DNA of 64,000 nt, from assembly GCF_000261685.1 (NCBI RefSeq), contig NZ_AJQE01000098.1:1-64000 (forward strand), given 5' to 3'. This stretch comes from Bradyrhizobium genomosp. I (2014) (GTDB taxonomy: Bacteria > Pseudomonadota > Alphaproteobacteria > Rhizobiales > Xanthobacteraceae). Under the pieces are notes generated by a model. It was not told the DNA's origin and searched no databases. It saw only the letters and a program-made list of their open reading frames with translations. Below, one piece after another: positions 19,144-37,936 of the stretch. Each line of letters begins with the position of its first letter. Position 1 is the stretch's first letter. The position numbers and the translations under genes were made by a program.

Positions 19144-19374
19144 CCGAAGTTGCGATGGACGACCCAACGGTTACTGGCGTGCGCAGGTTGAAGTTTCGAC
19201 GAAGCATCGGACCAGCCCGGAAAGACCGCGGTCCACCGGAACGCGTCACCGCGCTCGGCAGCCCAGCTCGAAATCCCAAGTTTCGCGAATAATCGCGAGC
19301 CATTCGGGCTGCAAAGCCGCGTCGGGGTGGTACGATGAGTTCGAAATGTGCAACCATGGGGAGCTCCAGCGGCG

Positions 19375-22017: not shown

Positions 22018-25000
22018 TGGAGATGGTGGACGGGGCCGAACGTCTCAGAGCGTTGACCGATCTGGAGTCCTGCCTGTTGGTCGAAGCCGCAGCAGGCACG
22101 GGGAAGACTTCCCTGCTCGCTGGTCGCGTGGTGATGCTGCTCGCGCACGGAGTCGATCCGCAGTCGATCGCGGCCATCACGTTCACCGAACTCGCGGCGG
22201 GCGAACTGCGTCAGCGCATCGCCTCCTACCTCCATCGCATAATCGAGGGCCGGATTCCGGACGAGCTCCGGCCGGCCCTGCCCTCCGGTCCCGACGCCGC
22301 CCAGACCGAGATGCTGCGCGCCGCCGCGAAGCGCCTCGACGAACTGACCTGCGGTACGATCCATTCGTTCTGCCACGACCTCCTGAAGACGTATTCCGTC
22401 GAAGCCGCGATCGATCCCGGCGCGGATGTCCTGGACGGAGATCAGGCCGACTTCGCGTTCGACGCGATCTTCGACAGGTGGTGGCGCGGCAGGCTCGACC
22501 GGACCGCGCCGGCGGCCGGGGATCCGATCGCATCGGTTGCTCGGCGTGATCCGATCAACGCCGAAGGACTGCTGCGCAGCTTCGCCAAATTTCGCCGACG
22601 CCATCGGGGAGCGCGGCCGTTGCCCGCCGATTTGGATGCGCACGCGGACGTCGAATTCGCGGAGAGCGTACGGGAATTCCGGCGCTGGTGCGACCAGGTC
22701 GACGTGCCCCCCGAGGCTGATCCGGACATCGTCGCGCTCGAGACGTTGGTCTCCCACTTCCGAGGACGCTTCGATCCGATGCCCGCCTTCGAAGGCCTGC
22801 TGGAGCTCGCGCATCCCGCGTGGCTGCCGATCATGCGCAAGGATACGTCCGATCTTCGGGAATACAGACGCCGGACGCTATGGCGGAAGGCTGGCGGCGC
22901 GGACGGCGAGCGATTGGCGAACCAGGCCGAAGAGCATTTCGGCCGATGCCGCCAGGCCTACCGCAAACTGATGGGACGGATCGCGACGGCCATCATCGGG
23001 ATCTTCTCGGCCGAGCTCGACGACGTGATGACGGAGTACGAGACGTTCAAACGGCGGGCCGCCGTCCTCGATTTCGACGACCTTCTGTTCACGTCGCGCG
23101 AGGTGCTGCGCGACCATCCTTCAGTCCGGGCGACCGCCGCCGAGCGCTTCTCGCGACTTCTGGTGGACGAGTTCCAGGACACTGATCCCGTGCAGGCGGA
23201 GATCATCTTTCTGTTGTGCGGAACGGCGAAGGATGACCGCGCCTGGCACGCGCGATCGCTTAGGCCGGGCCACCTCTTCGTAGTCGGCGATCCGAAACAG
23301 GCCATCTATTCATTCCGCGGCGCGGACCTAGCGACGTATCTCAGGGTGCGCGAGACGATCAAGGCGCAATTCCCCGACAATATCCTCAGGGTCACCGCGA
23401 ACTTTCGGTCTCGCGGCCAGATTTTGGACCACGTGAACCGGTGCTTTGAGGAGCGGCTCTCGTCGCAGCAGGCCGGTTACGTGGCCTTGCAGACCACGAG
23501 GGCGGCCAGCGAGCACGGCTTGCCGTGCGTGGCGAAGGTTTCCATAGAGCTTCCCCCGTTGACGAGGGTCGACAGTGCCCGCGACGAGGAAGCCCAGGCC
23601 GTGGCCGAAGTTTGCGCGCGCCTCATCGGTAACGTCGACATCAAGCTTAACGACGGAGAGACCAGGCGCCTTTGTCCGGGCGACATCGCTCTGCTCGCAC
23701 CGGTTTCCACGGACCTCTGGCGGTACGAACGCGCTCTCGAGGAGGCTGGACTGCCCTTCGCCTCGCAGGCGGGCAAAAACCTCTACAAGCGGCAGGAAGC
23801 GCAGGATCTGGTGGCGCTGATCCGCGCCTTGGCGGACACCCGCGACACGCTGGCGCTGGGAGCGCTCATGCGCGGTCCGCTCGTGGGCCTGACCGAACAG
23901 GAGCTGCTCGACATCACCGCCGATCTTCCCGTCGACCGCGACCGGATCTCAGGTCTCTCTCTCCGGACCGACCCGGCGGCGGTCCGAAACCCGGTCGCAC
24001 GGGAAGTGCTGACCGTCCTGACTGACCTGCGCCGCCGCATCAACGCGACCGCGCCCGCCTTTGTTCTCGCCGAGGCCATCGAGCGTCTGCGCATCCGCGC
24101 CATAGTCGCGGCTCGCAGCGGCGACCAAGCGGCGCGCGCGCTCGCGAACGTGGACGGCTTCGTCGAACGGGCACGAAGCTACGACGTCCGCGGCTTCGTC
24201 CAGTTCGCTAGGGACATCGATGACGAATGGTCGAGCGGATCGGCATCACCGGAAGCGATGATGGAGGCCGACGGACAGTCGATTGAGATCGTCACCGTGC
24301 ATTCGTCGAAAGGTCTGGAGTGGCCGGTCGTGATTCCGATCAACCGCTCGTCCATGCCGCGGCGGGGGGAGGCGTTCGTTCACCGGAGACGGGACGAAAG
24401 CCTGCATTGGGCGCTGGGCCAGGTGGTGCCGCCGGGACTAGGCGAAGCGCTGCGGACGGAAGAGGCCGAGAAGAGGGACGAGAACGTGCGGCTCCTTTAC
24501 GTCGCATGCACGCGGGCGATGGAGCTCCTAGTCATTCCGGACTTCTCTTGGAGCAACGACGCTTCATGGGCGAAGCTTCTCGACTTCAAACTGGACACCG
24601 CTCCCGAACTCGACATCGGCCGTCTTCCCCGCGCGCCCGTCGCCTTTCGCGCTCCTGTGGCGAACGGGCAGACCGCGCAGATCTTCGCGGAAGAGCGATC
24701 GCGCATCGAAGCCGCGCCGCGCATCCGTTGGATCAAGCCTAGCGACGGCGATCCCGACGTCATTACGGGCGAACTGTCCTTCGAGACGGGCGAACACGTG
24801 CCTCGCGCCGCCGCCACGGTCGAAGGAGGCCGCATCCGGGGCATCCTTCTCCACAAGCTGATGGAGGAGCTCATCTCCGGCGAGTTGAAGGAGAACCTGG
24901 AAGCCGCGACGGCCCGGTCCAACGAACTATTTGATCAATTGTCTTCGATGGCGCCGACGCACGCCGCGATCGACGTGCGGGAGCTCGCTTCGACCGCGCT

Positions 25001-25298
25001 GCAGACCTTGCGACTACCGGACGTCGACAGATACCGCGGAAAGCTCGTTGCGGAGGTGCCGGTCTACGGTACGGCGGCCGGCCCCGACGATCTGATGGGC
25101 GGCCGGGCCGACGCGATCGCCCGCGACGACGAAGGCACGGTCGTCTTCGACTGGAAGAGCGACGTAGATCCCAGGGAAGCTGAGTTCTCGACCTATCGGC
25201 GACAACTCGCTCATTACCTTCGGGCGGTCGGATCGAGCCGCGGCGCCATCGTCTATATGACTTCGGGCCAAGTCGATTGGATCAAGCTTGCACCCTGA
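22017..25298 (+). CDS. AddA-like UvrD/Rep-family helicase-nuclease
   Basis: The ATG at 22017 shares one base with the preceding stop and has GGAG 9 bases upstream. The 1093-aa protein shows SF1A motifs in order: EAAAGTGKTSLL (residues 22-34), AITFTELAAGEL, LVDEFQDTDPVQ (about 383), VGDPKQAIYSFRGAD (about 422), VHSSKGLEWPVV (about 760) and LLYVACTRAMEL (about 825). The end carries a RecB nuclease domain with GILLHKLMEEL, GGRADAI and VFDWKSD (about 1044). Together with the AddB-like protein this forms a two-nuclease DNA-end machine. It is island-borne, so it is probably not the host's housekeeping AddAB, and defence is a fair guess. Confidence 0.85.
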   Translation: MEMVDGAERLRALTDLESCLLVEAAAGTGKTSLLAGRVVMLLAHGVDPQSIAAITFTELAAGELRQRIASYLHRIIEGRIPDELRPALPSGPDAAQTEMLRAAAKRLDELTCGTIHSFCHDLLKTYSVEAAIDPGADVLDGDQADFAFDAIFDRWWRGRLDRTAPAAGDPIASVARRDPINAEGLLRSFAKFRRRHRGARPLPADLDAHADVEFAESVREFRRWCDQVDVPPEADPDIVALETLVSHFRGRFDPMPAFEGLLELAHPAWLPIMRKDTSDLREYRRRTLWRKAGGADGERLANQAEEHFGRCRQAYRKLMGRIATAIIGIFSAELDDVMTEYETFKRRAAVLDFDDLLFTSREVLRDHPSVRATAAERFSRLLVDEFQDTDPVQAEIIFLLCGTAKDDRAWHARSLRPGHLFVVGDPKQAIYSFRGADLATYLRVRETIKAQFPDNILRVTANFRSRGQILDHVNRCFEERLSSQQAGYVALQTTRAASEHGLPCVAKVSIELPPLTRVDSARDEEAQAVAEVCARLIGNVDIKLNDGETRRLCPGDIALLAPVSTDLWRYERALEEAGLPFASQAGKNLYKRQEAQDLVALIRALADTRDTLALGALMRGPLVGLTEQELLDITADLPVDRDRISGLSLRTDPAAVRNPVAREVLTVLTDLRRRINATAPAFVLAEAIERLRIRAIVAARSGDQAARALANVDGFVERARSYDVRGFVQFARDIDDEWSSGSASPEAMMEADGQSIEIVTVHSSKGLEWPVVIPINRSSMPRRGEAFVHRRRDESLHWALGQVVPPGLGEALRTEEAEKRDENVRLLYVACTRAMELLVIPDFSWSNDASWAKLLDFKLDTAPELDIGRLPRAPVAFRAPVANGQTAQIFAEERSRIEAAPRIRWIKPSDGDPDVITGELSFETGEHVPRAAATVEGGRIRGILLHKLMEELISGELKENLEAATARSNELFDQLSSMAPTHAAIDVRELASTALQTLRLPDVDRYRGKLVAEVPVYGTAAGPDDLMGGRADAIARDDEGTVVFDWKSDVDPREAEFSTYRRQLAHYLRAVGSSRGAIVYMTSGQVDWIKLAP

Positions 25299-25365: not shown

Positions 25366-28300
25366 TCACTGCAGTGCGCGCAACCTCTCGATCTTGTCGA
25401 CGAGGCGGCTGAACTCTCTCTCAGGATCTCGATACCAATCGGTCGACCAAACCCTGTAGATTTTCCAATTCAGCCCTTCGAGGACGTCCTGCCTCAGACG
25501 ATCCCGATCTCGCGCCGACTTCGAGGAGTGGTAGGTCGCTCCATCACACTCCACACCCAAAATGTAACTACCTGGCTTGTCGGGATGCACAACGCCGATG
25601 TCGATCCGGTACTTTGCGACGCCGACTTGAGGATGCGCCTCGTAGTTCGCCGCCTTCAAGCGCGACAGGAACCACCGCTCGAAGTCGCTGTCTGGCTCCT
25701 CCCCTGTCCCGCGGCCGGGTGTAAAGGAGCCCCGGCTTGCATATTCGAGAAACTCCTTCAAAACCCTGACGCCTCGGCGATTTCCGTCCGCGACGATGCG
25801 ACCGGGATCGAGGGAGGTAAACACCGCGAGCCGACGCTTCGCGCGAGTGAACAGCACATTGAGGCGCCGATGACCGTAGGCACGGTTCAAAGGGCCGAAG
25901 TGTTGATGGAAAACACCTTCAGCAGTTGGCCCGTAGACCGTCGAGATCAAGATGACATCCCGCTCATCGCCCTGCACGTTTTCGAGATTCTTGACGAAGA
26001 AGTCTTCCAATTTATCGGCCCATTTCTCGCGATATGCCTGGACGTCCGGATCGCTCGTAGCCCGTTCGTCCATCAGCGTCTCGATGAGATCCCGCTGGGC
26101 TTGGTTCATCGCGACGATGCCGATCGAACGATCGGCCCGCGTCCGCATCAATTCCGCAGCCTCTTCTACGATCGCGCGAGCTTCCGGAAGATTCCGCCCC
26201 TGCCCAACCTCGTAGGCGCTGTCGATCTTACGGCACGACACTCCAAAATCCGGGTCTTCGAGCACCGGGCTGGGGTACACCAATAGGCGCTCGCCATAGA
26301 ATTCGCGATTGGAATACGCGATCAAGCTTTGATGCCGAGATCGATAATGGACCTCCAGCATTCTCATCGGATGCCAACAGCGACGGCCGAGTTCGAGGAT
26401 CGATTCCTCGGGCGCATCCTCCGCCTTTTCGTCGCTCGGATCGTCCGATGCGCTGAAGAAATCGGTGGGTGGCAACTGTTCAGGATCGCCTACGATGACA
26501 GCTTGCTTGCAACGCAACATCGCGCCCAGCGCGTCCTCGGGGCGCATCTGTGAAGCCTCGTCTATCACGAGTATATCGAAGCTATGTCGGCCAGGTTCGA
26601 GGTACTGCGCTACAGACATCGGGCTCATCATCACGCAGGGCGTGTACGCTCGAATGGCGTTTCCCGCATTGGAGAACAGTCGGCGCAGTGCGATCCGCGG
26701 CTGCTGCAGGCCGGTTTGGTGCGTCAACATCTCATTGTCGGTATAGTCGCGCGTCGAGCCCGCGCGTCGACCGGGAGGAATCGACCGGGCGCGAAGCTGG
26801 GCGGCGACCATCTTGCGATTCAGTTGAAGTATCTCGCGATCCAGGTCCTGAAACCGCTTGCGTACCTGCTCGTGAGTGTTCCCGGCATGCCTCGTCAAAA
26901 CGGGATGCTCCCTCATGAGCTTCTCCGCAGCCGAACGATAGAATGCGGCTTCGATGGCGAGGGCGACGCCCGAGTAGCGCAGCCCTTCCGCCGGCCAGCA
27001 ACTGATAAGGTCGCTCAAACCAAGGCTTGCGGCTTCCAGCTCCGTCGACAGCAACGCAATTTGCTTTTCGAGAGCGTCGGGAGCCTGAGACGCTCGCTCG
27101 CACTTTTGCAATAGCGTCCGGATCGGCACGGCTTTCCAGGGGCCGCCGCACCATTCCTCGGGTCGAAGCTTGAGGAGCTCATCTGCCTCCCCGGCAGCTC
27201 GGTCGACGTCGGCGATCGCGACCTTCAGATCCTCTGCGGTGCGCTTTAAGCCGGACGATCGATCGCCGTAGCCCTCTTGTAGGAGATAGCGAGCGGCTGA
27301 AGGCGGGAGTTGCATCGACTGCACACCTTCGACGAAGCGAGTCGTCGCTCGAACACGGCCAGCCCGCTCCAGTTCAGATCCCGCAGCAATCGACGCGCAG
27401 GCGTTCGTTGCCATGGCATCTGCGGCCATTTGCTGCCGGAGGACCTTGGCCTCTGTCTGCATCTGCAGGGCCTTCGGAAGAGAGGCCACCGGCTGGCTGG
27501 GCTGAATACCAAACTGTTGACTGGTCGTGACGATCAAATCGAGGGCTGACGCGCGAGCTTCGTGGCGATCGGCCTCCGCGTGGATCGTGGATCGCGCAGC
27601 GAATGCCGTCTGGAACGCATCGGCGAGATTCAAACTGCCGGCGGCTTCCGCGAAGCGGACGAGCATCGCGAATTCGTCGGGGCCGCCTTCGAACGCCAAC
27701 CGTCGCAATTCTCGCGCGCCTGACTCGCCCGGAGGAGTTACTTTTTGGACCGACCGCATCCATTCCGATACTTCAATGAGGCGCTCGAACGGAGTTTCAG
27801 CCCCTTTCCAGTGTCGACCGGCAGCAGCTTTTGCTTCGGCGCATTCCTCCAACCGCTGCAACCGATCCTTCCACAGAGCCGCCGCTATGAGCCTTTTTGC
27901 AGCATCGACCGGAGGAAGCTTGGGATCGTCCGGAAAGGTTTGGCGGCAAACGGCGCGTGCAGCCCGCCATTCTCTTCCGAAGAGTTTGCCGAAGAAGCCG
28001 GTAGAGCGAAACGTTCCTGCAGCTCGACGCAGTTCGGCCACGGACGGAATGGAGTCAGCAAGCCGCGTCGTAGCCTGCTCCGAGAAGCTTGCTTCGGCCG
28101 CCGCGGATTTGACCTCACCAGCAAGCTCGTGGGCGGCAGCCAAATCGTCGATCGCCGCTTCCGCCGTGAGTGCCTGCGAGCGATAGCGAAGATTGTCCTG
28201 CCGGATCTTGGGAACGACGAGAAGGTAGCCCGCGGCCATCGCCTCTGACTTGACGTCGGATGGGGCATTCGGATCACGCTTCGCCGCACTGAGCAGGTCC

Positions 28301-30561
28301 GCCATCAGTTGAACCAGGGAACCGAGTCTGGTTGCGGATTCTCTCGCCAATTCGAGAGCCCTCGATATCCCTTCGACGGGTAAACCGGCTACTCCGAGAG
28401 CCGTCGCCCGCTCAAGCAGCGGCCCGACGGCTTCGCCGTCGGTTTCGAGCGCCTGCTTGGAGCAAATTCCGTCGACCTGCAGTTCGAGATCGTGGGCTCT
28501 TATGCAGCGATCGACCCAATCGTCTAGCGACTTCCGAGCCGATTCGCCGGTCGCGAGGGTGAGCAACTTCTCCTCCACATCCGCTGGGGTTGCTGGCAGA
28601 TCGGAAACGACCCTCGCGGCCGCGGAGGCGTCGGCCGGCGAATTTAGGCCGTCCCACGACGCCGCGCTGGCGAGTGCCTCGACGTGCTGCAGAAGCTGCC
28701 TCAGCGCGGTTCCCCAACCCGCCACGACCTCAACGGCCTTGGTCCGATCGAAGCGGTTTAGGTTGAGGTTGCCGACGCCGCGCCAAGGCTGATGCTTCGG
28801 CTCGGCGGCGGCCCCCATCGCCGTCGCCCAGTCGTCCAAGGCCTTGCCGAGTCCGACTAGTTCGGCGAGCTTGAATCGATCGATGCCCAACGGGTCCGGA
28901 AAGCGGAACTCCGTCGTCGGTTTTGGAGGTGCCGGCTCCAGACCGGCTCTGGTGAAGTCACCCCAAAGAACCTGATGAATGCTGAGGCCGGTAGCGCCGG
29001 CCGGGCTGTTGATCAGACTCGCATATTCGGTGAGACGCTGACGCACCTGGCGAAGAGCTTCGCGGGCGCTCTCGACTTCCTGGACGTTCGCGGCGCTGCG
29101 CGGGGTTTCCATGCGCTCGCGTATCGATTTGAGGACCGACGCCTTCGAAGCTTTTGCCGAGTGCACCTCGAGGCAATAGAGGCCGAGGCCCATATGATCG
29201 AGCCGGTCCTTGACCACCTTCAGCGCGGCCATTTTTTCGGAGACGAACAAGACCGTCTTGCCGTGCCAAAGCGCGTTGGCGATGATGTTGGTGATCGCCT
29301 GCGACTTGCCGGTGCCCGGCGGCCCCTGGATGACGAGGTTCTTTCCGCTTGTGGCGTCGATCACGGCGCTGAGCTGCGAGGCGTCGGCCTCGATGACCAA
29401 CGCGGGAGCTTGAGACTCGAGCTCTGGATGGTCGACGTCGTAGACCGCAGCGACGTTGTCGCCGTGCTCGCCGGCGACATCCCCGTAGACTTGCCCCAGC
29501 AATTCGTGAGACTCGGGACGGGAGTCGGCCGGCCATCGAGCCGAGTCGAGATCGCTCCACATCGCCTGCCGGGCGAACGAAAAGAGCCCGACGGTCGCGA
29601 AGCGCCGAACCGTCCATCGAGGTTTGTTGGTGAGGCAGGCAGCTACGCCGGAAAGATAGGCTTCAATTCCGGCCTCTGGATCGTACTCGGGCAGATCTAT
29701 CGCGAAGCGCTTCAGCTTTTCGCGAAGCGCGACATTGCTCGCTTCGTCGTCGTCCCGTCCGGCGATGGAATAGACGTACTCGCCGCTCGCGATGCGCTTC
29801 TCCATGTTGATGGGCAACAAGACGAGGGGAGCGTACGATGGATCAGTCGAATCGTCCTGTTCGTACCATTCGAGGAAGCCGACCGCGAAGTATAGCGCGC
29901 TGAGGCCGGCATCCTCCTGGAGCGCCCGCGCGGCACTGTGGATGCTGGCCAGTTTCGGCTCCAGGCGATCCGGAAAAAAGAGTGTCTGCAGAGTGTTGTC
30001 TGCATGGTGCTTTTGCGCGGAGCGTTTGGACGGCGGCAGATCGTACGATGGGTCGATTCCGAGTTCCCGGGCTCTTGCTTTAGCATCGGTCGCGACCCGC
30101 CATTCCGGCATCCCGAGCTTCGCCCTCACACGATCGCGCAGCGCTCTTTCAGCGACTTTATCCTTCGTTCGACGGCGGTTACCCGCGGCGCGACGCGCAT
30201 CTTCAGCGGCCAGCCAGTCGGGATCGGTTTCCTTAGCCGTCTTCAGAGCGGCTCGGAATTCGTCCGTCTCCTCGTCGTGAGGAACCTGCTCGACAGGCGG
30301 GACCGGAATGACATCGAGGGACTTGCCCGTAGCCAAGGCTCCGATGAGGAGCGTCAAATCTTCGTCGACGATGCGAACGTGCTTTGCCGATGTCTCCGAA
30401 TGACGAAAGTTCAGCATGGTATTGCGCATGCTGAGGTCGATCAGCTTATCTCGGGCTTTGCGGACGCCTTCTCGCACCAACTCGGCGATGCCAGAGATAC
30501 CCTCACTGGATCTGGTCGAGCGAGAAGAGTTGTCGCCGCTAGTTTGCCCGAACGTCGTCAT
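25366..30561 (-). CDS. Hhe-type DUF4011-helicase-Vsr defence protein
   Basis: The 1731-aa protein begins with a DUF4011 region (VRKARDKLIDLSMRNTMLNF). An SF1 helicase follows: Walker A IQGPPGTGKSQAITNIIANA near residue 414, a large helical insert of about 900 residues, DILVIDEASQM near 1334 and VVGDPEQLPPTDFF near 1355, then AMNQAQRDLIETL and GDERDVILIS. The last 110 residues are a Vsr/DUF559-like nuclease: YRIDIGVVHPDKPGSYILGV, ECDGATYHSSKSARDRDRLR and WKIYRVWSTDWY. This layout is that of the Hhe antiphage protein described in the defence-island survey of Gao and colleagues; the assignment is by architecture recalled, not by search. It converges on the AddA-like gene (67-bp gap). Confidence 0.85.
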   Translation of the reverse strand: MTTFGQTSGDNSSRSTRSSEGISGIAELVREGVRKARDKLIDLSMRNTMLNFRHSETSAKHVRIVDEDLTLLIGALATGKSLDVIPVPPVEQVPHDEETDEFRAALKTAKETDPDWLAAEDARRAAGNRRRTKDKVAERALRDRVRAKLGMPEWRVATDAKARARELGIDPSYDLPPSKRSAQKHHADNTLQTLFFPDRLEPKLASIHSAARALQEDAGLSALYFAVGFLEWYEQDDSTDPSYAPLVLLPINMEKRIASGEYVYSIAGRDDDEASNVALREKLKRFAIDLPEYDPEAGIEAYLSGVAACLTNKPRWTVRRFATVGLFSFARQAMWSDLDSARWPADSRPESHELLGQVYGDVAGEHGDNVAAVYDVDHPELESQAPALVIEADASQLSAVIDATSGKNLVIQGPPGTGKSQAITNIIANALWHGKTVLFVSEKMAALKVVKDRLDHMGLGLYCLEVHSAKASKASVLKSIRERMETPRSAANVQEVESAREALRQVRQRLTEYASLINSPAGATGLSIHQVLWGDFTRAGLEPAPPKPTTEFRFPDPLGIDRFKLAELVGLGKALDDWATAMGAAAEPKHQPWRGVGNLNLNRFDRTKAVEVVAGWGTALRQLLQHVEALASAASWDGLNSPADASAAARVVSDLPATPADVEEKLLTLATGESARKSLDDWVDRCIRAHDLELQVDGICSKQALETDGEAVGPLLERATALGVAGLPVEGISRALELARESATRLGSLVQLMADLLSAAKRDPNAPSDVKSEAMAAGYLLVVPKIRQDNLRYRSQALTAEAAIDDLAAAHELAGEVKSAAAEASFSEQATTRLADSIPSVAELRRAAGTFRSTGFFGKLFGREWRAARAVCRQTFPDDPKLPPVDAAKRLIAAALWKDRLQRLEECAEAKAAAGRHWKGAETPFERLIEVSEWMRSVQKVTPPGESGARELRRLAFEGGPDEFAMLVRFAEAAGSLNLADAFQTAFAARSTIHAEADRHEARASALDLIVTTSQQFGIQPSQPVASLPKALQMQTEAKVLRQQMAADAMATNACASIAAGSELERAGRVRATTRFVEGVQSMQLPPSAARYLLQEGYGDRSSGLKRTAEDLKVAIADVDRAAGEADELLKLRPEEWCGGPWKAVPIRTLLQKCERASQAPDALEKQIALLSTELEAASLGLSDLISCWPAEGLRYSGVALAIEAAFYRSAAEKLMREHPVLTRHAGNTHEQVRKRFQDLDREILQLNRKMVAAQLRARSIPPGRRAGSTRDYTDNEMLTHQTGLQQPRIALRRLFSNAGNAIRAYTPCVMMSPMSVAQYLEPGRHSFDILVIDEASQMRPEDALGAMLRCKQAVIVGDPEQLPPTDFFSASDDPSDEKAEDAPEESILELGRRCWHPMRMLEVHYRSRHQSLIAYSNREFYGERLLVYPSPVLEDPDFGVSCRKIDSAYEVGQGRNLPEARAIVEEAAELMRTRADRSIGIVAMNQAQRDLIETLMDERATSDPDVQAYREKWADKLEDFFVKNLENVQGDERDVILISTVYGPTAEGVFHQHFGPLNRAYGHRRLNVLFTRAKRRLAVFTSLDPGRIVADGNRRGVRVLKEFLEYASRGSFTPGRGTGEEPDSDFERWFLSRLKAANYEAHPQVGVAKYRIDIGVVHPDKPGSYILGVECDGATYHSSKSARDRDRLRQDVLEGLNWKIYRVWSTDWYRDPEREFSRLVDKIERLRALQ

Positions 30562-30910: not shown

Positions 30911-32242
30911 TCAACCTCCCCTCCTCGGCCGGACAAACGGAAGGATTCCCGGCCTAGTCAATGCGTGGCGGTGGCCGGTCGCGCGACGACAATTCGTCAG
31001 TGACACGTCGGCGAGATCAACGAAGCCACCATCGCTGACGGCCCGACAGGCCTGGGCCACCTGGATTGCGGCCGCGACGACCGCTGTCGACGGCACGCCG
31101 AGACTGCGGCCAGCAATCATCAACGCCCCGCAGTGATCGATTCGACCGGCGTCGACGAGCTCTTGGAGAGCCGGGACAAGAGGAACTTCCAAGTGACCGT
31201 CCTGCTGGAGCCAAGCCTTCTCGGGCGAGCGCCTCCCGGGGAAGCCGTGGAGCCGAATGTCGAAGATCTCCGACGGCGTGGAACCAAGGCCGGCGTCAAC
31301 GACGAGATCGAAGTTCGAACCGGCCGCGGCGCGCCGAGCTGCGAGATTGTCGACGCCGACGATCGCCAGGCCGGGCTCGTCCGCCGAGCGCTTGGTGCCA
31401 TCGACGAACCGGCTTTCGATGACCGTGGTGCCGAAGCCACGCGCCTCCGCCCACGACGCCGCGTTGCGGGCCTTTTTACGGCCGATCCAGTCCGGCTTGG
31501 TCAACAACTGGATGGCGAGATTGCCGACTTCGGACTTGTCCACGTCCTGAAGAAACAGGGAGACCATACCCGGATCGGCATACGGGAGAAGTCCAATGGT
31601 CCACAGCGCGGCCTGACCGAGATTGCCGAGCCCCAACATCCAGTACGCCGCTGGCAGGTAGGCGAGATCGATGCCGGCAGCGTCTTCGCAGCCCGGCGAC
31701 AACGCCGACAATCTCGAAGTCCTGCGACAGGCGAGCTTGTCTCCGAGCACGACACTGCGGAAGACCTCGCCGATGCCCATAGCGGCCGCGATCACGCCGC
31801 CGATTTCGTTGCCGTCCCTGGGCGGATCGGCCGGCGCTGCGATGCCGACGACGCCTGCCCAGCCATCGGCCCAGCACAGCGCCCCGCCCTGTATCCGCCG
31901 GCGCTCGATACCGACGTGCAAGGCGACGGCGTGCGCGGGCGCAGCCGTAGAGCGGCATCCCGCGAGTTCGAGATGCCGACGGACGGGCCATCTGCCGAAT
32001 TGCCCGACCACAGTCGTGTCGCCGAAATCGGAGCCGAGATAGACGCCACCGGGAAACATCCGCACGCCGCATTCCGCCGCTGTCAACAGCGCCGCCTGGA
32101 TCCACGGCGCGCCAGTCGCGGCATCGGCGGTGAGAACAAGCGCGGCTTGATCGAGCCTTCTCCGCGCCTCGTCGTAGCGGAGATGACCGTCGCCGCGCAT
32201 GAGCAGCTGCGCCAAGCGATCGTCTTCGATCGAAAGGTTCAT
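30911..32242 (-). CDS. ThiF/E1-like ubiquitin-activating enzyme (BilC-like)
   Basis: The 443-aa protein has an N-terminal region of about 195 residues, then a ThiF-type adenylation fold: MLGLGNLGQAALWTIGLL (GxGxxG at 204-209), FLQDVDKSEVGNLAIQLL and the VGVDNLAARR segment. HCGALMIAGRSLGVPS near the end contains C371 in a context common to bacterial E1 proteins that act with E2 partners, so C371 is the best thioester candidate; C418 is another. The ATG overlaps the stop of the JAMM gene (ATGA) and has a strong AGGAGG site. It should adenylate the C-terminal Gly of the tandem Ubl and pass it to the E2. Confidence 0.82.
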   Translation of the reverse strand: MNLSIEDDRLAQLLMRGDGHLRYDEARRRLDQAALVLTADAATGAPWIQAALLTAAECGVRMFPGGVYLGSDFGDTTVVGQFGRWPVRRHLELAGCRSTAAPAHAVALHVGIERRRIQGGALCWADGWAGVVGIAAPADPPRDGNEIGGVIAAAMGIGEVFRSVVLGDKLACRRTSRLSALSPGCEDAAGIDLAYLPAAYWMLGLGNLGQAALWTIGLLPYADPGMVSLFLQDVDKSEVGNLAIQLLTKPDWIGRKKARNAASWAEARGFGTTVIESRFVDGTKRSADEPGLAIVGVDNLAARRAAAGSNFDLVVDAGLGSTPSEIFDIRLHGFPGRRSPEKAWLQQDGHLEVPLVPALQELVDAGRIDHCGALMIAGRSLGVPSTAVVAAAIQVAQACRAVSDGGFVDLADVSLTNCRRATGHRHALTRPGILPFVRPRRGG

Positions 32243-32757
32243 GCGAACCTCCTGACCGCGAAGTAACTGCCGGCATCATCGCTGCGATCGGCCCACTGCC
32301 GACGACCGCGATATTCGTAGATGCCGATTTCGCCAGGCAGATACGCGCGATCCGCGAAATTCGGCACGATGATCGCGACGTGCCCGACTTCGGGGATCAT
32401 CGGGTTGTCGCGATCGGTCTGGCTCTGGCCGACACCGCCGCCGGGATGGGTGTGGACGTCGGCCACGACCTCCAGTCCTTCGCGCCGGCATAGATCCCAG
32501 ACGATGTCCATCTTCGAACCATCGAACAGGATCGCACCCTGCAACGCGTGCGGATCGACATCGTCGTATGGCAGAAACGCTTCTATCGTCCTGAGGCCGT
32601 CGACCCCGCGGCCGAGAAGGAAACCGCCGCTCTCGCGATGACCCCGGCCGCGCTCACGCAGCAGTGACAACGTTTCCAGCCACAAACTCCTGCGGCAGTT
32701 CAAGCGCCGCGGCGGGAAGACTAGCGCTCGAATATTCCGTAGAATCGAGAAGGCCAT
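32239..32757 (-). CDS. JAMM/JAB metallopeptidase (BilD-like deubiquitinase)
   Basis: The product is 172 aa from the ATG at 32757. The JAMM signature is complete: E42 in ESGGFLLG, then VHTHPGGGVGQSQTD with H102, H104, S112 and D115 in the canonical HxH-x7-S-x2-D spacing. Such enzymes bind zinc and cut isopeptide or peptide bonds after a beta-grasp protein. The chosen start lies 104 bp inside the E2-like gene; a later TTG near the E2 stop is possible, since the fold needs only a helix before E42. The stop overlaps the E1 gene. It likely removes or matures the Ubl. Confidence 0.85.
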   Translation of the reverse strand: MAFSILRNIRALVFPPRRLNCRRSLWLETLSLLRERGRGHRESGGFLLGRGVDGLRTIEAFLPYDDVDPHALQGAILFDGSKMDIVWDLCRREGLEVVADVHTHPGGGVGQSQTDRDNPMIPEVGHVAIIVPNFADRAYLPGEIGIYEYRGRRQWADRSDDAGSYFAVRRFA

Positions 32758-33172
32758 GCACGGTCTCCAGCAGAAAGATGATCGTCTTGTCGGCAGTCCA
32801 GCAGAGTTCCTGGTACTGACCGGGCCAGTGGCTCCGCGCCAGCCGGTCGACTGGATGATAGAGGCACGGCGTCGACCACTGGGCGAACGAGACCATCGTG
32901 CCGCCTTGCTTGTTCTTGGGCCGGTGCGCATCAGCGAGCGCCTGGTCGTCGCGGCCATGCCAAAGCTGAGAGGTCGGCGCCGTCGCCGGGTATCCGGAAC
33001 AGTCCGACCGCAGCAGGAAACCGGTCGGACCGCCGAGACGAACCGGTGCCGCGACGAAGAACATCGCGATCGGAAACTTGATGCCGAGCAAGGCCCAGCG
33101 ACCTCGGCGCATGCCGACCTTAAAGGTCGGCGATGCCAGATCGCGCATGAGCGCGTTATGATCGGGTCCCAT
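32654..33172 (-). CDS. E2-like ubiquitin-conjugating protein (BilB-like)
   Basis: This 172-aa protein starts 3 bp after the Ubl stop. It shows a divergent E2 pattern: a strand-rich front (KFPIAMFFVAAPVRLGGPTGFLLRSDCSGYPATAPTS) ending with the proline-rich turn, then WSTPCLYHPVDR with C103 as the probable catalytic Cys, and a following helix (HWPGQYQELCWTADKTIIFLLE). No classical HPN motif is present, as in several bacterial E2 families. Its place between a Ubl and a JAMM/E1 pair makes the E2 role much more likely than the sequence alone would. Confidence 0.7.
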   Translation of the reverse strand: MGPDHNALMRDLASPTFKVGMRRGRWALLGIKFPIAMFFVAAPVRLGGPTGFLLRSDCSGYPATAPTSQLWHGRDDQALADAHRPKNKQGGTMVSFAQWSTPCLYHPVDRLARSHWPGQYQELCWTADKTIIFLLETVHGLLDSTEYSSASLPAAALELPQEFVAGNVVTAA

Positions 33173-33175
33173 GGT

Positions 33176-33664
33176 CTAGCCCTGCGGCTTCACCTTGAAG
33201 ACGAGATCGAGGACGATCGACTTCTCGCCGCGAGCCACCTGGCCCAGATGCGAGTCCGGCGGCAGCACGTGGCCGTCGTGCTTCAGCTGGAAGTCGATCG
33301 GGTCCTCGGTCGAGGCAAGCTGGCTGACCGCCCACTTCGTCACCTTCGCGATCGTCGCCGACGGACGGAAGGGATGCTCGACGTGACGGCCCTGGTAGCG
33401 GACCGTGGTCGCGATCTTGCCGGGCTTGGCGACATGAAGCGGCGCGAACTCGACCGACAGATGCTCGATCAGGACCGCGTCGTGACCGAGCGGCTCCTCG
33501 GCGTCCTCGACATAGACCTCGATCAAGCCTTCGATCCCGGTCTTGGTGACGGCGATCTCGACGAACTCCGTCACGGTGGTGGTGGAACCGATCTCCGCTT
33601 CGTAATGGCCGGTGCCTTCTGTCGCAAACACGACCATCAGGCGGTCTTCAACAATATCGCTCAT
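33176..33664 (-). CDS. tandem ubiquitin-like protein ending in Gly (BilA-like)
   Basis: The ATG at 33664 has AGAAGGA about 6 bases upstream; the longer frame to 33739 lacks this. The 162-aa product appears to hold two beta-grasp units, residues about 8-80 and 85-158, the second reading IATTVRYQGRHVEHPFR then DFQLKHDGHVLPPDSHLG and IVLDLVF. The chain ends KVKPQG, so a C-terminal Gly is exposed without processing. Two fused ubiquitin-like units recall ISG15 and the bacterial BilA proteins, which are joined to phage structural proteins. This is the first gene of the four-gene operon. Confidence 0.75.
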   Translation of the reverse strand: MSDIVEDRLMVVFATEGTGHYEAEIGSTTTVTEFVEIAVTKTGIEGLIEVYVEDAEEPLGHDAVLIEHLSVEFAPLHVAKPGKIATTVRYQGRHVEHPFRPSATIAKVTKWAVSQLASTEDPIDFQLKHDGHVLPPDSHLGQVARGEKSIVLDLVFKVKPQG

Positions 33665-33855: not shown

Positions 33856-34254
33856 ATGACAGCACCACCCCGAGAACAAGAAGAAGAGAGACGTGAGCAC
33901 GATGCTGAGGCCGCTCTCAGAGCATTCTTCGGAATTGCCGCACTGTGGGAATTGTCGACCGACGAGCAGATCAAACTTCTTGGTTCGCCGCCTCGCTCAA
34001 CGTTCTTCAAATGGAAGAAGGAAGGCGGCGCGCTTTCGAACGACACCGTCGAGCGTCTGTCGCACATACTCAACATCCACAAATGTTTGCAAATCTTGTT
34101 CACCGACGATGGCGCCAGCGACGGCTGGATCAGAAGGCCTAACCAAGCGCCGTTCCTGAATGGGATCTCAGCAATCGACTACATGACCGAGACAGGCCAT
34201 GTAGCGGACGTGTTCAAGGTTAGAAGCTACCTAGACGCGCAGCGCGGGGGTTGA
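33856..34254 (+). CDS. MbcA/ParS/Xre-type antitoxin
   Basis: The 132-aa protein has an Xre-like HTH (LSTDEQIKLLGSPPRSTFFKWKKEG) and the C-terminal toxin-binding segment LNIHKCLQILF...GWIRRPNQAPFLNGISAIDYM, typical of MbcA/ParS/Xre antitoxins. These neutralise RES-domain NAD-degrading toxins and repress their own operon. The ribosome site AGGAGGAGG is very strong, so antitoxin should be made in excess. The RES toxin gene follows after one base. Confidence 0.88.
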   Translation: MTAPPREQEEERREHDAEAALRAFFGIAALWELSTDEQIKLLGSPPRSTFFKWKKEGGALSNDTVERLSHILNIHKCLQILFTDDGASDGWIRRPNQAPFLNGISAIDYMTETGHVADVFKVRSYLDAQRGG

Positions 34255-34255
34255 A

Positions 34256-34948
34256 TTGAAGCGTGAGCCGAAGAGGCAGATCGATTGGTCAAGCTGCTAC
34301 AGGCTGATTCCGTCGCGATTCCCCCCCGTGGAGCTTTACGCCGGTGTGGCTTCACCAGAAGATTGGGACGCGATCAAACGCATCGAAGCGTCCACTAACC
34401 CTCGCCTTCGGAAAGGCGTCCTTCTGCCTGAGGATGAAGGTAGGGTGGAGCAGCACTGGTTGGTCGCGCCATTTGCCTACCCCGATCCGGAACCGTCCGC
34501 TTACGGTGATGGATCTTTCGGCTTTTCGATCGTTGCCGAGACGCTTCACTCGGCTCTCTTGCTCGCAATCGCGCGACGCGAAATCTTCCTTCGTCGCACC
34601 GCCGAAGGACCATGCCGGCTAGTGATGCGCGTGATCAAAGTACCGTTGAAGGCAGCTTTCACCGATCTCACCGACCTGAAGACTGACGACCCAACCCTGA
34701 GAACGCGTATCGCCGAACTGCGCGCCAACAAATCATACGGAGTGCTCGTGCGGGGACCGCGAGGAGCGGGCAACCCGTTGGCGGTGGTGCTTAGACCAAC
34801 GGCCTTTGTGCCGCCCGCCGCACAGACTGAGCACTTCTGCTTCCTGTGGAACGGCGAGAGGATTCACAAGCTGTTTTCGCTTCCAGCCGAAACCAAAGTC
34901 ATCGTACCCGAGGACCTTTTGAAATCGGAATCTGACACCGCCGCCTGA
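34256..34948 (+). CDS. RES-domain toxin (NAD+ phosphorylase type)
   Basis: The 230-aa protein begins at a TTG one base after the antitoxin stop. The RES domain shows YRLIPSRFPPVELYAG with the conserved Arg region, FGFSIVAETLHSAL with the Glu, and SYGVLVRGPRGAGNPLAVVL before the final Ser region. Known RES toxins cleave NAD+ in the presence of phosphate and stop growth. The TTG start and lack of its own ribosome site imply weaker translation than the antitoxin, as expected. Confidence 0.82.
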   Translation: MKREPKRQIDWSSCYRLIPSRFPPVELYAGVASPEDWDAIKRIEASTNPRLRKGVLLPEDEGRVEQHWLVAPFAYPDPEPSAYGDGSFGFSIVAETLHSALLLAIARREIFLRRTAEGPCRLVMRVIKVPLKAAFTDLTDLKTDDPTLRTRIAELRANKSYGVLVRGPRGAGNPLAVVLRPTAFVPPAAQTEHFCFLWNGERIHKLFSLPAETKVIVPEDLLKSESDTAA

Positions 34949-35357
34949 TCCGGCCAAATCTCGCAATGCGGATTGTTCGCCCAACAAACGAGAGGGAGGA
35001 TAGGTTCGGCTGGTACGCGGTCATGTAGGCGGTCCGCACGGTGCTGCTGCTGCTGATGCTGATCCTGTGGGTGGTGCGCGACCTGCGTGCCAACGTCGGT
35101 CTGGCGGCTTACGAGGAGACCAGCGCATCCGGGCGCCACGACCGCCCGACCGTTCAGGTCCCGGCGTCGGCACGGGTGGGCCATGATGCTGGTCGCGATG
35201 CGGAAAAAGCGGCCGATGACGATGGTACCAAGGCATCCAAGCTCGGCATTAGTTTTAAGTCATATTGCCTGATTATGAGCTAAAACTAATATCCTCAAGA
35301 TATTGCGTAAAACTCATAAATCCGTTATATGTCTTAAAACTCATAGGGATGATCGGC
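34949..35357. other. intergenic stretch before hipBA, possible gene remnants
   Basis: From 34949 to about 35240 the DNA is GC-rich and has a short frame beginning with Leu-rich MLLLLMLILWVVRDLR (35041 on), but no intact gene is convincing; it may be decayed coding sequence. From 35251 the DNA becomes AT-rich and holds the hip operator repeats described separately. Confidence 0.35.
35251..35345. promoter_or_regulatory. hipBA operator/promoter region with four half-site copies
   Basis: AGTTTTAAGTCATA (35251-35264) and TATGAGCTAAAACT (35274-35287) are inverted copies matching at 12 of 14 positions. TAAAACTCATA recurs directly at 35308-35318 and 35335-35345, 27 bp apart. Between them AATATC-CTCAA-GATATT (35288-35304) is a perfect palindrome. 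The array ends just before the hipB start. HipB proteins bind several operators cooperatively, so this is probably an autoregulatory region. Confidence 0.6.
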
Positions 35358-35651
35358 ATGATTTTAAAGACAATCAGCGACTTAGGGCTGGCTGTCCGGG
35401 AAGCCCGTCATCGGCGGAAGCTGACCCAAAAGCAACTTGCCGAGACGCTAGGGACCACTCAGGAATGGATCTCGCAATTCGAGACCGGCCGCCTAGAGAA
35501 CCCGAGCCTCGGAACGGTGCTAAAGGCCTTCGCCACGCTGGGGATCGACCTGAACATCGACAGTCTGCCGAAGTCTGCACGGAACGACGACTTGGACACC
35601 GGTGATCTCGCGCTCGACGAGCCAAGCTTCCTCAAGGGACGGCGGCGATGA
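35358..35651 (+). CDS. hipB: HipB-like Xre antitoxin
   Basis: The 97-aa product reads MILKTISDLGLAVREARHRR then LTQKQLAETLGTTQEWISQFETGRLENPSLGTV: an HTH_3 domain in the position usual for HipB. AGGG lies 9 bases before the ATG at 35358; an ATG at 35349 is in frame. The acidic C-terminus (DDLDTGDLALDEPSFL) may contact HipA. The stop overlaps the hipA start (ATGA). Confidence 0.82.
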   Translation: MILKTISDLGLAVREARHRRKLTQKQLAETLGTTQEWISQFETGRLENPSLGTVLKAFATLGIDLNIDSLPKSARNDDLDTGDLALDEPSFLKGRRR

Positions 35652-36940
35652 GTAAATTCATGAACGTCCTGATGGGCGGCGTACCGATCGGCCGTCTCGA
35701 GCAGATGGATACCGGCGTCCTCGCCATCGAGTACGCCGATCGTTGGCTCGCCGCCGACAGGGTCCAGATCCCGCTTTCGATGTCCCTGCCTCTCGCCGCC
35801 AAGAAGCACTCCGGCGCGAAGGTGGCCAACTATCTCTGGAATCTGCTTCCGGACAACGACCAGACCCTGCAGAAATGGGGACAGATATACGGCGTGTCCC
35901 CGAACAGCGCGTTCGCTCTGCTGTCGAAGGTCGGAGAGGACTGCGCGGGCGCGATCCAGATCGTCACCGACGAGTGGATGGACGCCAACGCTAATTCGCC
36001 CGGGGAAGTCCAGTGGATCGACGAGGCGGAGGTCGCGAACCGCCTCAAGCGCTTGCGCGAGGAGAGAACCTGGACGGGCCGTCGCGACGGCGACCGAGGA
36101 CATTTCAGTCTCGCCGGCGCGCAGCCGAAGATGGCCTTGCTGTTCGACGGAAAGCGGTGGGGCGTACCGAGCGGCCGCCTGGCGACTACGCACATCCTCA
36201 AGCCGCCGATGCCTCACCTCCGAGGCACGACCGAGAACGAGTACGCGTGCCTGCGTCTCGCGAACCACGTCGGGATCACGGCGGCCGAAGTTAAGGTCGG
36301 GAAATTTGGCGAAGAGGTCGCGATCGTCGTCACCCGGTACGACCGCGAGATCGACAAGGACGGCGTCGTCAGACGCTTCCACCAAGAAGACATGTGCCAG
36401 GCGCTCGGTGTGCATCCGGCCGTCAAGTACCAGAGCGATGGCGGCCCCTCGATCGAGCAGATCTCCAACGACGTGCTGCGCTACGCCACCGATCCAGAGG
36501 CGGACAAGGCCGCGTTCGCCGACATGATCGCCTTCAACTTCCTGGTGCTCGGTACCGACGCGCACGCGAAGAACTTCTCTGTCATCCAGCTCCCGGGTCG
36601 GCGGATGTTTCTTGCGCCGCTCTACGACGTTCTGAGCTTCGTGCCTTACGACGACGACGAACATGAGCGGCGGCGACTGCGCATGGCGATGAAGATTGGC
36701 GGCTATTACAAGTTCTCAGAAGTCCTGCCGCGGCATTGGAGACGCCAGGCGGAACTGATGAAAATGGATCCCGACGAGATGATCGCGCGATTGGTGGCGC
36801 TCGGCGAGAAGATTCCCGACGCGCTAAGCGACGTAGTGAAGGAGGCGAGGGTCGAGGGCCTGAAAGAACCGGTGCTTGACACGATGCTGGACGGAATCTC
36901 CGCGCGCGGCAAAGCGATCGTGCAGCAATACTCGGCGTGA
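35648..36940 (+). CDS. hipA: HipA-family serine/threonine kinase toxin
   Basis: The 430-aa protein has the HipA N-terminal lobe (MGGVPIGRLEQ..., LPLAAKKHSGAKVANYLWNLLPDN) and the C-terminal kinase lobe. FSLAGAQPKMAL is the conserved P-loop-like motif, FNFLVLGTDAHAKNFSV the catalytic loop (Asp and Asn) and LAPLYDVLSF the metal-binding DxxS-like motif. HipA toxins phosphorylate targets such as glutamyl-tRNA synthetase and induce dormancy. Length and order are standard, and the gene seems intact. Confidence 0.9.
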   Translation: MSKFMNVLMGGVPIGRLEQMDTGVLAIEYADRWLAADRVQIPLSMSLPLAAKKHSGAKVANYLWNLLPDNDQTLQKWGQIYGVSPNSAFALLSKVGEDCAGAIQIVTDEWMDANANSPGEVQWIDEAEVANRLKRLREERTWTGRRDGDRGHFSLAGAQPKMALLFDGKRWGVPSGRLATTHILKPPMPHLRGTTENEYACLRLANHVGITAAEVKVGKFGEEVAIVVTRYDREIDKDGVVRRFHQEDMCQALGVHPAVKYQSDGGPSIEQISNDVLRYATDPEADKAAFADMIAFNFLVLGTDAHAKNFSVIQLPGRRMFLAPLYDVLSFVPYDDDEHERRRLRMAMKIGGYYKFSEVLPRHWRRQAELMKMDPDEMIARLVALGEKIPDALSDVVKEARVEGLKEPVLDTMLDGISARGKAIVQQYSA

Positions 36941-37862: not shown

Positions 37863-37936
37863 TGGAGCGGGCGAAGGGAATCGAACCCTCGTATGCAGCT
37901 TGGGAAGCTGCCGTTCTACCATTGAACTACGCCCGC
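37863..37936 (-). tRNA. tRNA-Gly (anticodon CCC)
   Basis: Read on the minus strand from 37936: acceptor GCGGGCG, D arm GTTCAATGGTAGAAC, anticodon stem GCAGC-TTCCCAA-GCTGC with CCC at positions 34-36, T arm AGGGTTCGATTCCCT, acceptor CGCCCGC, then TCCA, so CCA is encoded. All stems pair. The 3' end faces the defence island, the usual side for integration by tyrosine recombinases, so this tRNA is the likely right boundary of the island. Confidence 0.95.

Follow-up and report, generated by a model that had tools for sequence, protein, structure and literature searches.

The described system closest to the operon studied here is the bacterial ISG15-like (Bil) pathway. Its components are designated BilA (the ubiquitin-like protein, Ubl), BilB (E2), BilC (deubiquitinase, DUB) and BilD (E1) in an account that also reports, for related systems, an E1 thioester at Cys417 and trimming by the DUB, and that names Cys138 as the catalytic residue of a solved Bil E2 (PMC11354881). 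In Collimonas OK412 the Ubl is described as attached to the phage central tail fiber (PMC11364771), a mechanism that a further source states for Bil in general (PMC12948488). Other bacterial operons combine similar modules. The 6e polyUbl operons are described as having an RWD-like inactive E2, a JAB domain mostly fused to the E1 and a Zn-finger-like protein (PMC1779556), and type II CBASS employs E1, E2-like and deubiquitinase-like modules (Cap2/Cap3) in phage defense (PMC12355090). Here we analyze a four-gene operon, bilA to bilD, of Bradyrhizobium genomosp. I (2014), located in positions 1 to 64,000 of contig NZ_AJQE01000098.1 (assembly GCF_000261685.1); this stretch of 64,000 nucleotides is hereafter called the window. 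The operon is very probably a complete Bil antiphage conjugation system of the branch whose E2-like protein belongs to DUF7665. It is a well-formed member of a known system and extends the Bil family in Bradyrhizobium; as an operon it is ordinary, and the interest lies in its E2.

Operon Identity and Components

The four reading frames are all intact and consecutive on the minus strand, from 33664 to 30911 (Table 1). A gap of 3 bp separates bilA from bilB, bilC and bilD overlap by 4 bp, and the 5′ end of bilC overlaps bilB by ~104 bp. Each product matches its PADLOC Bil model over nearly its full length, with 127.6 bits for BilA (residues 10–162), 168.7 for BilB, 199.4 for BilC and 398.4 for BilD, and E-values that range from 1.4e-37 (BilA) to 8.8e-120 (BilD). 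These matches bear out the original prediction, made from the letters alone, that the four components are those of Bil. Pfam assigns BilB to DUF7665 (98.8 bits) and BilC to Prok-JAB (29.6 bits) above the cut-off; below it lie the ThiF match of BilD (17.6 vs. 28.1 bits needed) and a DUF2604 match in the second half of BilA. Chance is excluded as an explanation of the operon by the PADLOC E-values together with the synteny in 46 complete loci and the dN/dS values reported below.

For comparison we used a set of 53 loci (the window, L052–L076, L080–L084 and L088–L109). Without the incomplete loci (L056, L057, L061, L062, L067, L101 and L102) 46 complete loci remain, of which 45 are distinct, as L090 repeats L065. 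The class and genus searches supplied 28 stretches taken wide, leaving out weak ThiF matches (E > 1e-10) and the short contigs L009, L042 and L050, and 11 stretches were taken from 36 plasmid records. Outside the set stand L077 (no match), L078 and L079 (bilD fragments only) and L110 (an E1 fragment only); L002 duplicates L058, and L085–L087 duplicate other loci. Several loci are close kin and sampling is weighted to Bradyrhizobium; all counts below are counts of loci, not of independent events.

Gene order is A-B-C-D on one strand in 46/46 complete loci, the window included, and the other Bil branch shows the same order of Ubl, E2, JAMM and E1 in its NGR234 locus. As it is common to all complete loci, this order is the canonical one for Bil. 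The original prediction had singled out both the gene order and the rhizobial host as notable, and neither proved to be so, rhizobial hosts being common for these operons. The closest E1, 87% identical, comes from Bradyrhizobium sp. dw_411, and a genus-wide search gave matches in 25/195 genomes (own genome and fragments counted). Across the class, the BilD model matches 84/385 genomes at E ≤ 0.001, mostly through short ThiF-domain matches, and eight genomes at E < 1e-10, the window's own among them. The BilC profile at E ≤ 1e-15 finds 4/398 genomes of a phylum sample and 14/296 of a family sample, with the window's own genome in both. Among plasmids, 36 records match BilD and 24 of these 36 are predicted to be conjugative. 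Two contigs from IMG/VR (L083 and L084) also carry Bil operons, in which BilA extends 6 and 8 residues past the glycine that ends the window BilA. Fragments of bilD without bilA, bilB and bilC (L061, L062 and L056) are likely remnants of decayed operons.

The residues on which Ubl activation and removal would depend are conserved. Over the 45 distinct complete loci, the GxGxxG motif and Cys371 of BilD and Gly162 of BilA are each present in 45/45, as are the JAMM residues E42, H102, S112 and D115 of BilC, and H104 is present in 44. Both the E1 with its candidate thioester cysteine and the JAMM residues had been predicted, and the numbering given for them and for Cys103 of BilB is exact with a bilC start at 32757. 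This start is an ATG, and BilC relatives share the N-terminal consensus MxxSIxxxIRxxxxPxxRLxC; the conserved Met itself is little proof of the start, since the beginnings of the relatives' rows were picked by us or by annotators. BilA stops at the glycine in 28/45 loci and carries 2–9 extra residues in 17/45, as would be expected if the JAMM peptidase trims BilA. The window BilA needs no trimming.

Profile and structure comparisons place the components with differing clarity. The BilC family profile matches the solved BilC 8tyx (E 7e-15). For BilD, the single sequence reaches E 0.14 at best against the PDB, and the family profile has its best PDB matches in NEDD8 E1 and ThiF (E 5e-4 to 6e-4); against the NGR234-type Bil E1, hhalign gives a probability of 97% (E 3e-11). 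A weak match (E 0.036) pairs Cys371 with Cys417 in the E1 of the other branch, and a global hhalign of the E1s of both branches misaligned the C-terminus. BilA had been predicted to be a two-unit β-grasp protein with an exposed terminal glycine. The glycine is invariant, and for the two-unit fold the family profile gives a weak match to linear di-ubiquitin across both units (best E 0.011). The AlphaFold2 (AF2) model of BilA repeats a strand-helix pattern twice at a pLDDT of 44, too poor for a structure search. The single BilA sequence has no match in the PDB to E 1, the Ubls of the two branches show no profile link by hhalign (E 0.23), and a PHROGs search returned no match to E 0.001.

All four genes show signs of constraint. 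In the window's clade dN/dS ranges from 0.04 to 0.36 over the 19/20 gene pairs for which it could be computed, with the bilB/bilC overlap left in and one pair (BilD of the window and L060) saturated and giving no value. For bilB the range is 0.075–0.28, and bilB of the window is under purifying selection.

Comparison with Described Systems

The window agrees with the PADLOC BilA–D/DUF7665 branch in all four components and in order, strand, E1 cysteine, JAMM residues and terminal glycine of the Ubl; the plasmid locus of Paraburkholderia caffeinilytica CF1 (L080), for example, has the same four genes. Its clade differs in two respects, having a Val or Ile at the putative active-site column of BilB and lacking the ImmA-UvrD-nuclease gene that most loci of the Cys108 superclade carry upstream of bilA (both below). 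The second Bil branch, represented by the structures 8tyx, 8tyz and 8tz0, has an E2 of the Metal_CEHH family (PF14455) and shares with the window the gene order, the nearest E2 fold and related BilC and E1 profiles. It differs in its DUF2604 Ubl of 98 aa (NGR234) vs. 162 aa in the window, its longer E1 and its lack of any PADLOC BilA or BilB match at E 0.01. Furthermore, its E2 residues Cys138, Glu144, His146 and His151, the CEHH motif, are invariant in 4/4 relatives. Membership of the window in the Metal_CEHH branch was rejected, as BilB is a DUF7665 protein with no PF14455 match to E 1 and without the motif, and BilA, with 162 aa and a sub-threshold DUF2604 match in its second half, does not fit a short single-unit Ubl. 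We take the DUF7665 and Metal_CEHH branches to be types I and II, respectively, of Chambers et al. 2024, and the latter seems to correspond to type 6c among the operons in Iyer et al. 2006. One operon of the Metal_CEHH branch, on Rhizobium etli p42a (L112), is followed by genes for a TIR-domain and a caspase-family protein.

The 6e polyUbl operons resemble the window in having a multi-unit Ubl and an E2-fold protein without the cysteine; a 6e assignment was rejected because the window JAMM is a separate gene that precedes the E1. The likeness to type II CBASS is one of modules: Cap2 is described as an E1-E2 fusion that conjugates the CD-NTase (PMC12355090), whereas the window encodes a true Ubl and separate proteins.

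Cysteine States of the E2-Like Protein

BilB is, by its predicted structure, a UBC-fold E2-like protein. Its AF2 model, built from four sequences, has a pLDDT of 66.4 and a pTM of 0.68, with most of residues 100–119 below 50. The best match is the solved Bil E2 chain 8tz0_D, with a Foldseek E of 5e-3 and a VIA Z of 8.7 (115 residues, 3.1 Å). The tool's guidance rates such a Z as modest, although the top matches are still the expected family. The model is closest to the Bil chains 8tz0_D and 8tyz_C, with E2/UEV chains of non-Bil entries at Z ≤ 7.0. Of the structure predictions that had been suggested as a check, that of BilB supports a UBC-like fold and that of BilA was too poor to use. At the sequence level, the BilB family profile has no match among PDB sequences to E 5.

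The solved BilB of 8tyz and 8tz0 is nearly identical to an NGR234 plasmid protein of the Metal_CEHH family, and its motif offers a register for the DUF7665 branch. Where C-x5-E-x-H-x4-H can be traced in this branch, its cysteine falls on the column of Val108 of the window. We anchored 48 of 49 BilB sequences (all except L057, counting L065/L090 twice and including the partial loci L067 and L101). Column 108 is Cys in 30 of them, and these have His at +8 in 30 cases, Glu at +6 in 16 and His at +13 in eight; the full motif occurs only in L064, L068 and L083. A full-length hhalign of the group with Cys108 pairs its Cys, Glu and His with Cys138, Glu144 and His146, respectively (probability 8.8%); when only the C-terminal half of BilB was aligned, this register was not reproduced. 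With the five members of the window's clade, hhalign instead matches C103 to Cys138 and opens a gap of five residues before Tyr105. From motif spacing and the weak full-length alignment, column 108 is the probable counterpart of catalytic Cys138, and for the window's clade the alignment is ambiguous.

By this register the putative CEHH column is occupied by Val or Ile in the window's clade, whose BilB proteins carry a Cys five residues upstream of it. Cys103 is found in 13/45 loci, vs. 27/45 for Cys at column 108, and is thus not a conserved cysteine of the BilB family. The original prediction of an E2-like protein with a candidate catalytic C103 stands as to the UBC-like fold and the presence of the cysteine, and its catalytic label is unproven; C103 could be a relocated nucleophile. 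In the comparison of branches (16 + 27 = 43 loci), no cysteine stands at either column in 12/43, made up of 11/16 loci of the window's group and L107, a Sphingorhabdus plasmid operon, of the other. The BilB of P. caffeinilytica CF1 also lacks a cysteine near the site and has two at its C-terminus only. We take this locus to be one of the systems in Millman et al. 2022, and if that is right an E2 cysteine would be dispensable there.

These states follow the phylogeny of the E1. On a tree of 48 rows (quick IQ-TREE, SH-aLRT support) the E2 cysteine states require 6 changes, vs. a mean of 24.6 when shuffled. A starred branch (97) divides the rows in two: 31 form the Cys108 superclade, in which 29 have Cys108, and the remaining 17 include the window. 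The window's own clade has five members (support 100), every one with C103; the other 11 scored rows among the 17 have neither cysteine, and within the 17 the window's clade joins its neighbors on an unstarred branch (89). Since the C103 of the window and that found within the Cys108 superclade lie on opposite sides of the starred branch, the window's C103 looks like an independent gain, on a tree whose root is uncertain owing to the very long branch of the outgroup L057. One further locus, L099, keeps Cys103 and apparently lost the CEHH-like Cys separately.

If this pattern is real, it tests the assumption that conjugation by an E1 and an E2 needs an E2 thioester, and natural BilB variants with a Cys at the CEHH-like column, at 103, at both or at neither share otherwise intact components. 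The literature that we searched held no statement of the pattern for the DUF7665 branch, a weak negative given that the main Bil papers lay outside the search.

Proposed Mechanism and Alternatives

Judged by its encoded residues and domains, the window has all components for Ubl activation and removal. We infer the chemistry, the target and phage defense itself. BilD would adenylate the tandem Ubl BilA at its C-terminal Gly162 and hold it as a thioester on Cys371, BilB would bring the charged Ubl to its target, and BilC would trim or remove it. By analogy with Collimonas the target may be a phage structural protein, with defective progeny as the outcome. Because a cysteine is apparently missing from the CEHH-like column of BilB, the Ubl would be transferred either via Cys103 as a relocated nucleophile or by the E1 itself, with BilB serving as a scaffold, and we give these routes about equal weight. 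Several observations count against the reading as a complete Bil antiphage system. The fold of BilA is not confirmed by its model (pLDDT 44); the E1 family profile matches 29 PDB sequences at E ≤ 1, and the solved Bil E1 chain is not among them; and the similarity of the BilB profile to the family of the solved Bil E2 is modest (hhalign probability 61%). Moreover, with an active-site cysteine that is not conserved in the family and is apparently Val in the window, a textbook E1-E2 thioester relay would not be assured.

That BilB is a noncatalytic UBC/RWD-like scaffold, with the Ubl passing from BilD Cys371 directly to a substrate lysine and Cys103 incidental, comes close to an even chance. The dozen loci without a cysteine at both columns are consistent with it, as are three (L073, L088 and L107) whose BilB has no cysteine from domain start to stop, yet Cys371 and Gly162 occur in all 45 loci. 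BilB Tyr105, Arg110 and Trp125 are invariant (45/45), which also fits a scaffold, and Cys-less E2-like/RWD domains were described in bacterial operons in 2006 (PMC1779556). Against an incidental cysteine, Cys103 is retained in 5/5 members of the window's clade, down to 52–53% BilB identity to the window, and in L099 after the apparent separate loss of its CEHH-like Cys, and the clade's own hhalign sets C103 on Cys138. The broader proposal that the 16/43 sampled Bil operons without a CEHH-like Cys are bona fide antiphage conjugation systems that dispense with an E2 thioester, and that the window's clade re-evolved Cys103, is tentative, plausible though short of probable.

Other readings depart further from antiphage conjugation. 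Conjugation of the Ubl to host proteins in stress regulation is unlikely, even though DNA-damage-responsive regulators are described in some Bil and many Bub operons, with Bub described as not shown to be antiphage (PMC13373217), and HTH and ImmA/IrrE genes adjoin bilA in three other Bil loci. Opposed to it are the island setting, with its PADLOC Hhe/PDC-S37-type helicase and toxin-antitoxin genes, and the antiphage role described for related Bil (PMC11364771, PMC12948488). A decaying operon, nonfunctional through loss of the BilB catalytic cysteine, would have a parallel in the bilD fragments that stand without the other genes elsewhere in the genus (L061 and L062). We rejected it as highly improbable, given four intact frames, the low dN/dS of bilB and the spread of loci lacking this cysteine over a deep portion of the tree. 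JAMM domains can also occur in sulfur-carrier/cofactor pathways, and a pathway of that kind (ThiS/MoaD with ThiF/MoeB and JAMM) in place of protein conjugation would account for the weak ThiF/MoeB similarity of the E1. The tandem Ubl, the E2-like partner, the full-length PADLOC Bil matches and a patchy, plasmid-borne distribution led us to reject this pathway, and no cofactor-biosynthesis family appeared among the neighbor genes scanned; we consider it to have almost no chance of being right.

Genomic Context

The Bil operon sits in a variable genomic island of Bradyrhizobium that abuts the 3′ end of tRNA-Gly(CCC). In 4/4 relatives compared, the right part of the window is syntenic from 37862 onward, the 3′ end of this tRNA, and left of that position no window DNA aligned to the four relatives' stretches at E 1e-10. 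The other end of the island was not found within the window, nor does the tRNA 3′ end recur there with ~10% mismatches allowed, and among the ORFs scanned no integrase was recognized beside the tRNA. The defense-island setting that had been predicted is upheld by another PADLOC-listed helicase and by toxin-antitoxin genes alongside the operon.

Table 1. Positions in the window of the Bil operon and of neighboring features
Feature	Position	Strand	Description
bilA	33176..33664	-	Tandem ubiquitin-like protein, two predicted beta-grasp units, 162 aa, exposed terminal Gly162
bilB	32654..33172	-	E2-like (UBC-fold), 172 aa, DUF7665; Cys103; Val108 at putative CEHH cysteine column
bilC	32239..32757	-	JAMM/Prok-JAB isopeptidase, 172 aa, E42-H102xH104-S112-D115
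bilD	30911..32242	-	ThiF-type E1, 443 aa, GLGNLG motif, conserved Cys371
DUF4011/AAA helicase	25366..30561	-	With MTES_1575 nuclease domain, 1731 aa, downstream of bilD; PADLOC PDC-S37 1176.7 bits, Hhe 856.2 bits; Pfam
AddAB-like pair	19348-25298		PD-(D/E)XK protein of 889 aa; UvrD + PD-(D/E)XK protein of 1098 aa
Xre/MbcA/ParS-type antitoxin gene	33856-34254	+	Divergent from bilA; Xre-like-HTH 42 bits, Xre_MbcA_ParS_C 35 bits
Likely RES-type toxin gene	34256-34948	+	Assigned by position only; no Pfam match
tRNA-Gly(CCC)	37863..37936	-	Island boundary

The AddAB-like helicase-nuclease pair is probably accessory. Its identity with core addAB was dropped, as DNA of its 3′ part gave only weak matches, in 2/20 relatives; nor is the pair clearly the same as that adjoining Bil in R. 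anhuiense. A different helicase-nuclease gene marks the Cys108 superclade: directly upstream of bilA and on the same strand, a gene for an ImmA/IrrE (Peptidase_M78)-UvrD-PD-(D/E)XK protein occurs in 23/29 loci of the superclade vs. 1/16 others (L076). Domains were checked in L082 (917-4348) only and homologues were found by phmmer, which placed genes of this type in L052, L053, L065, L066, L068–L072, L076, L103, L104, L106, L107 and L109; in L064, L094 and L095 the match overlaps a 5′ extension of the bilA frame. The gene was not found beside the window operon. Its product may be a DNA-damage sensor or a fifth Bil component.

Separate HTH and ImmA/IrrE genes, reminiscent of CapH/CapP regulators, lie beside the Bil-type operons of L080, L105, L108 and L113. 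Divergent from bilA in the window, 33856-36940 holds the Xre-type pair of Table 1 and an HTH-HipA pair, and in L059 a pair resembling the Xre-type one, judged by ORF reading only, flanks bilA.

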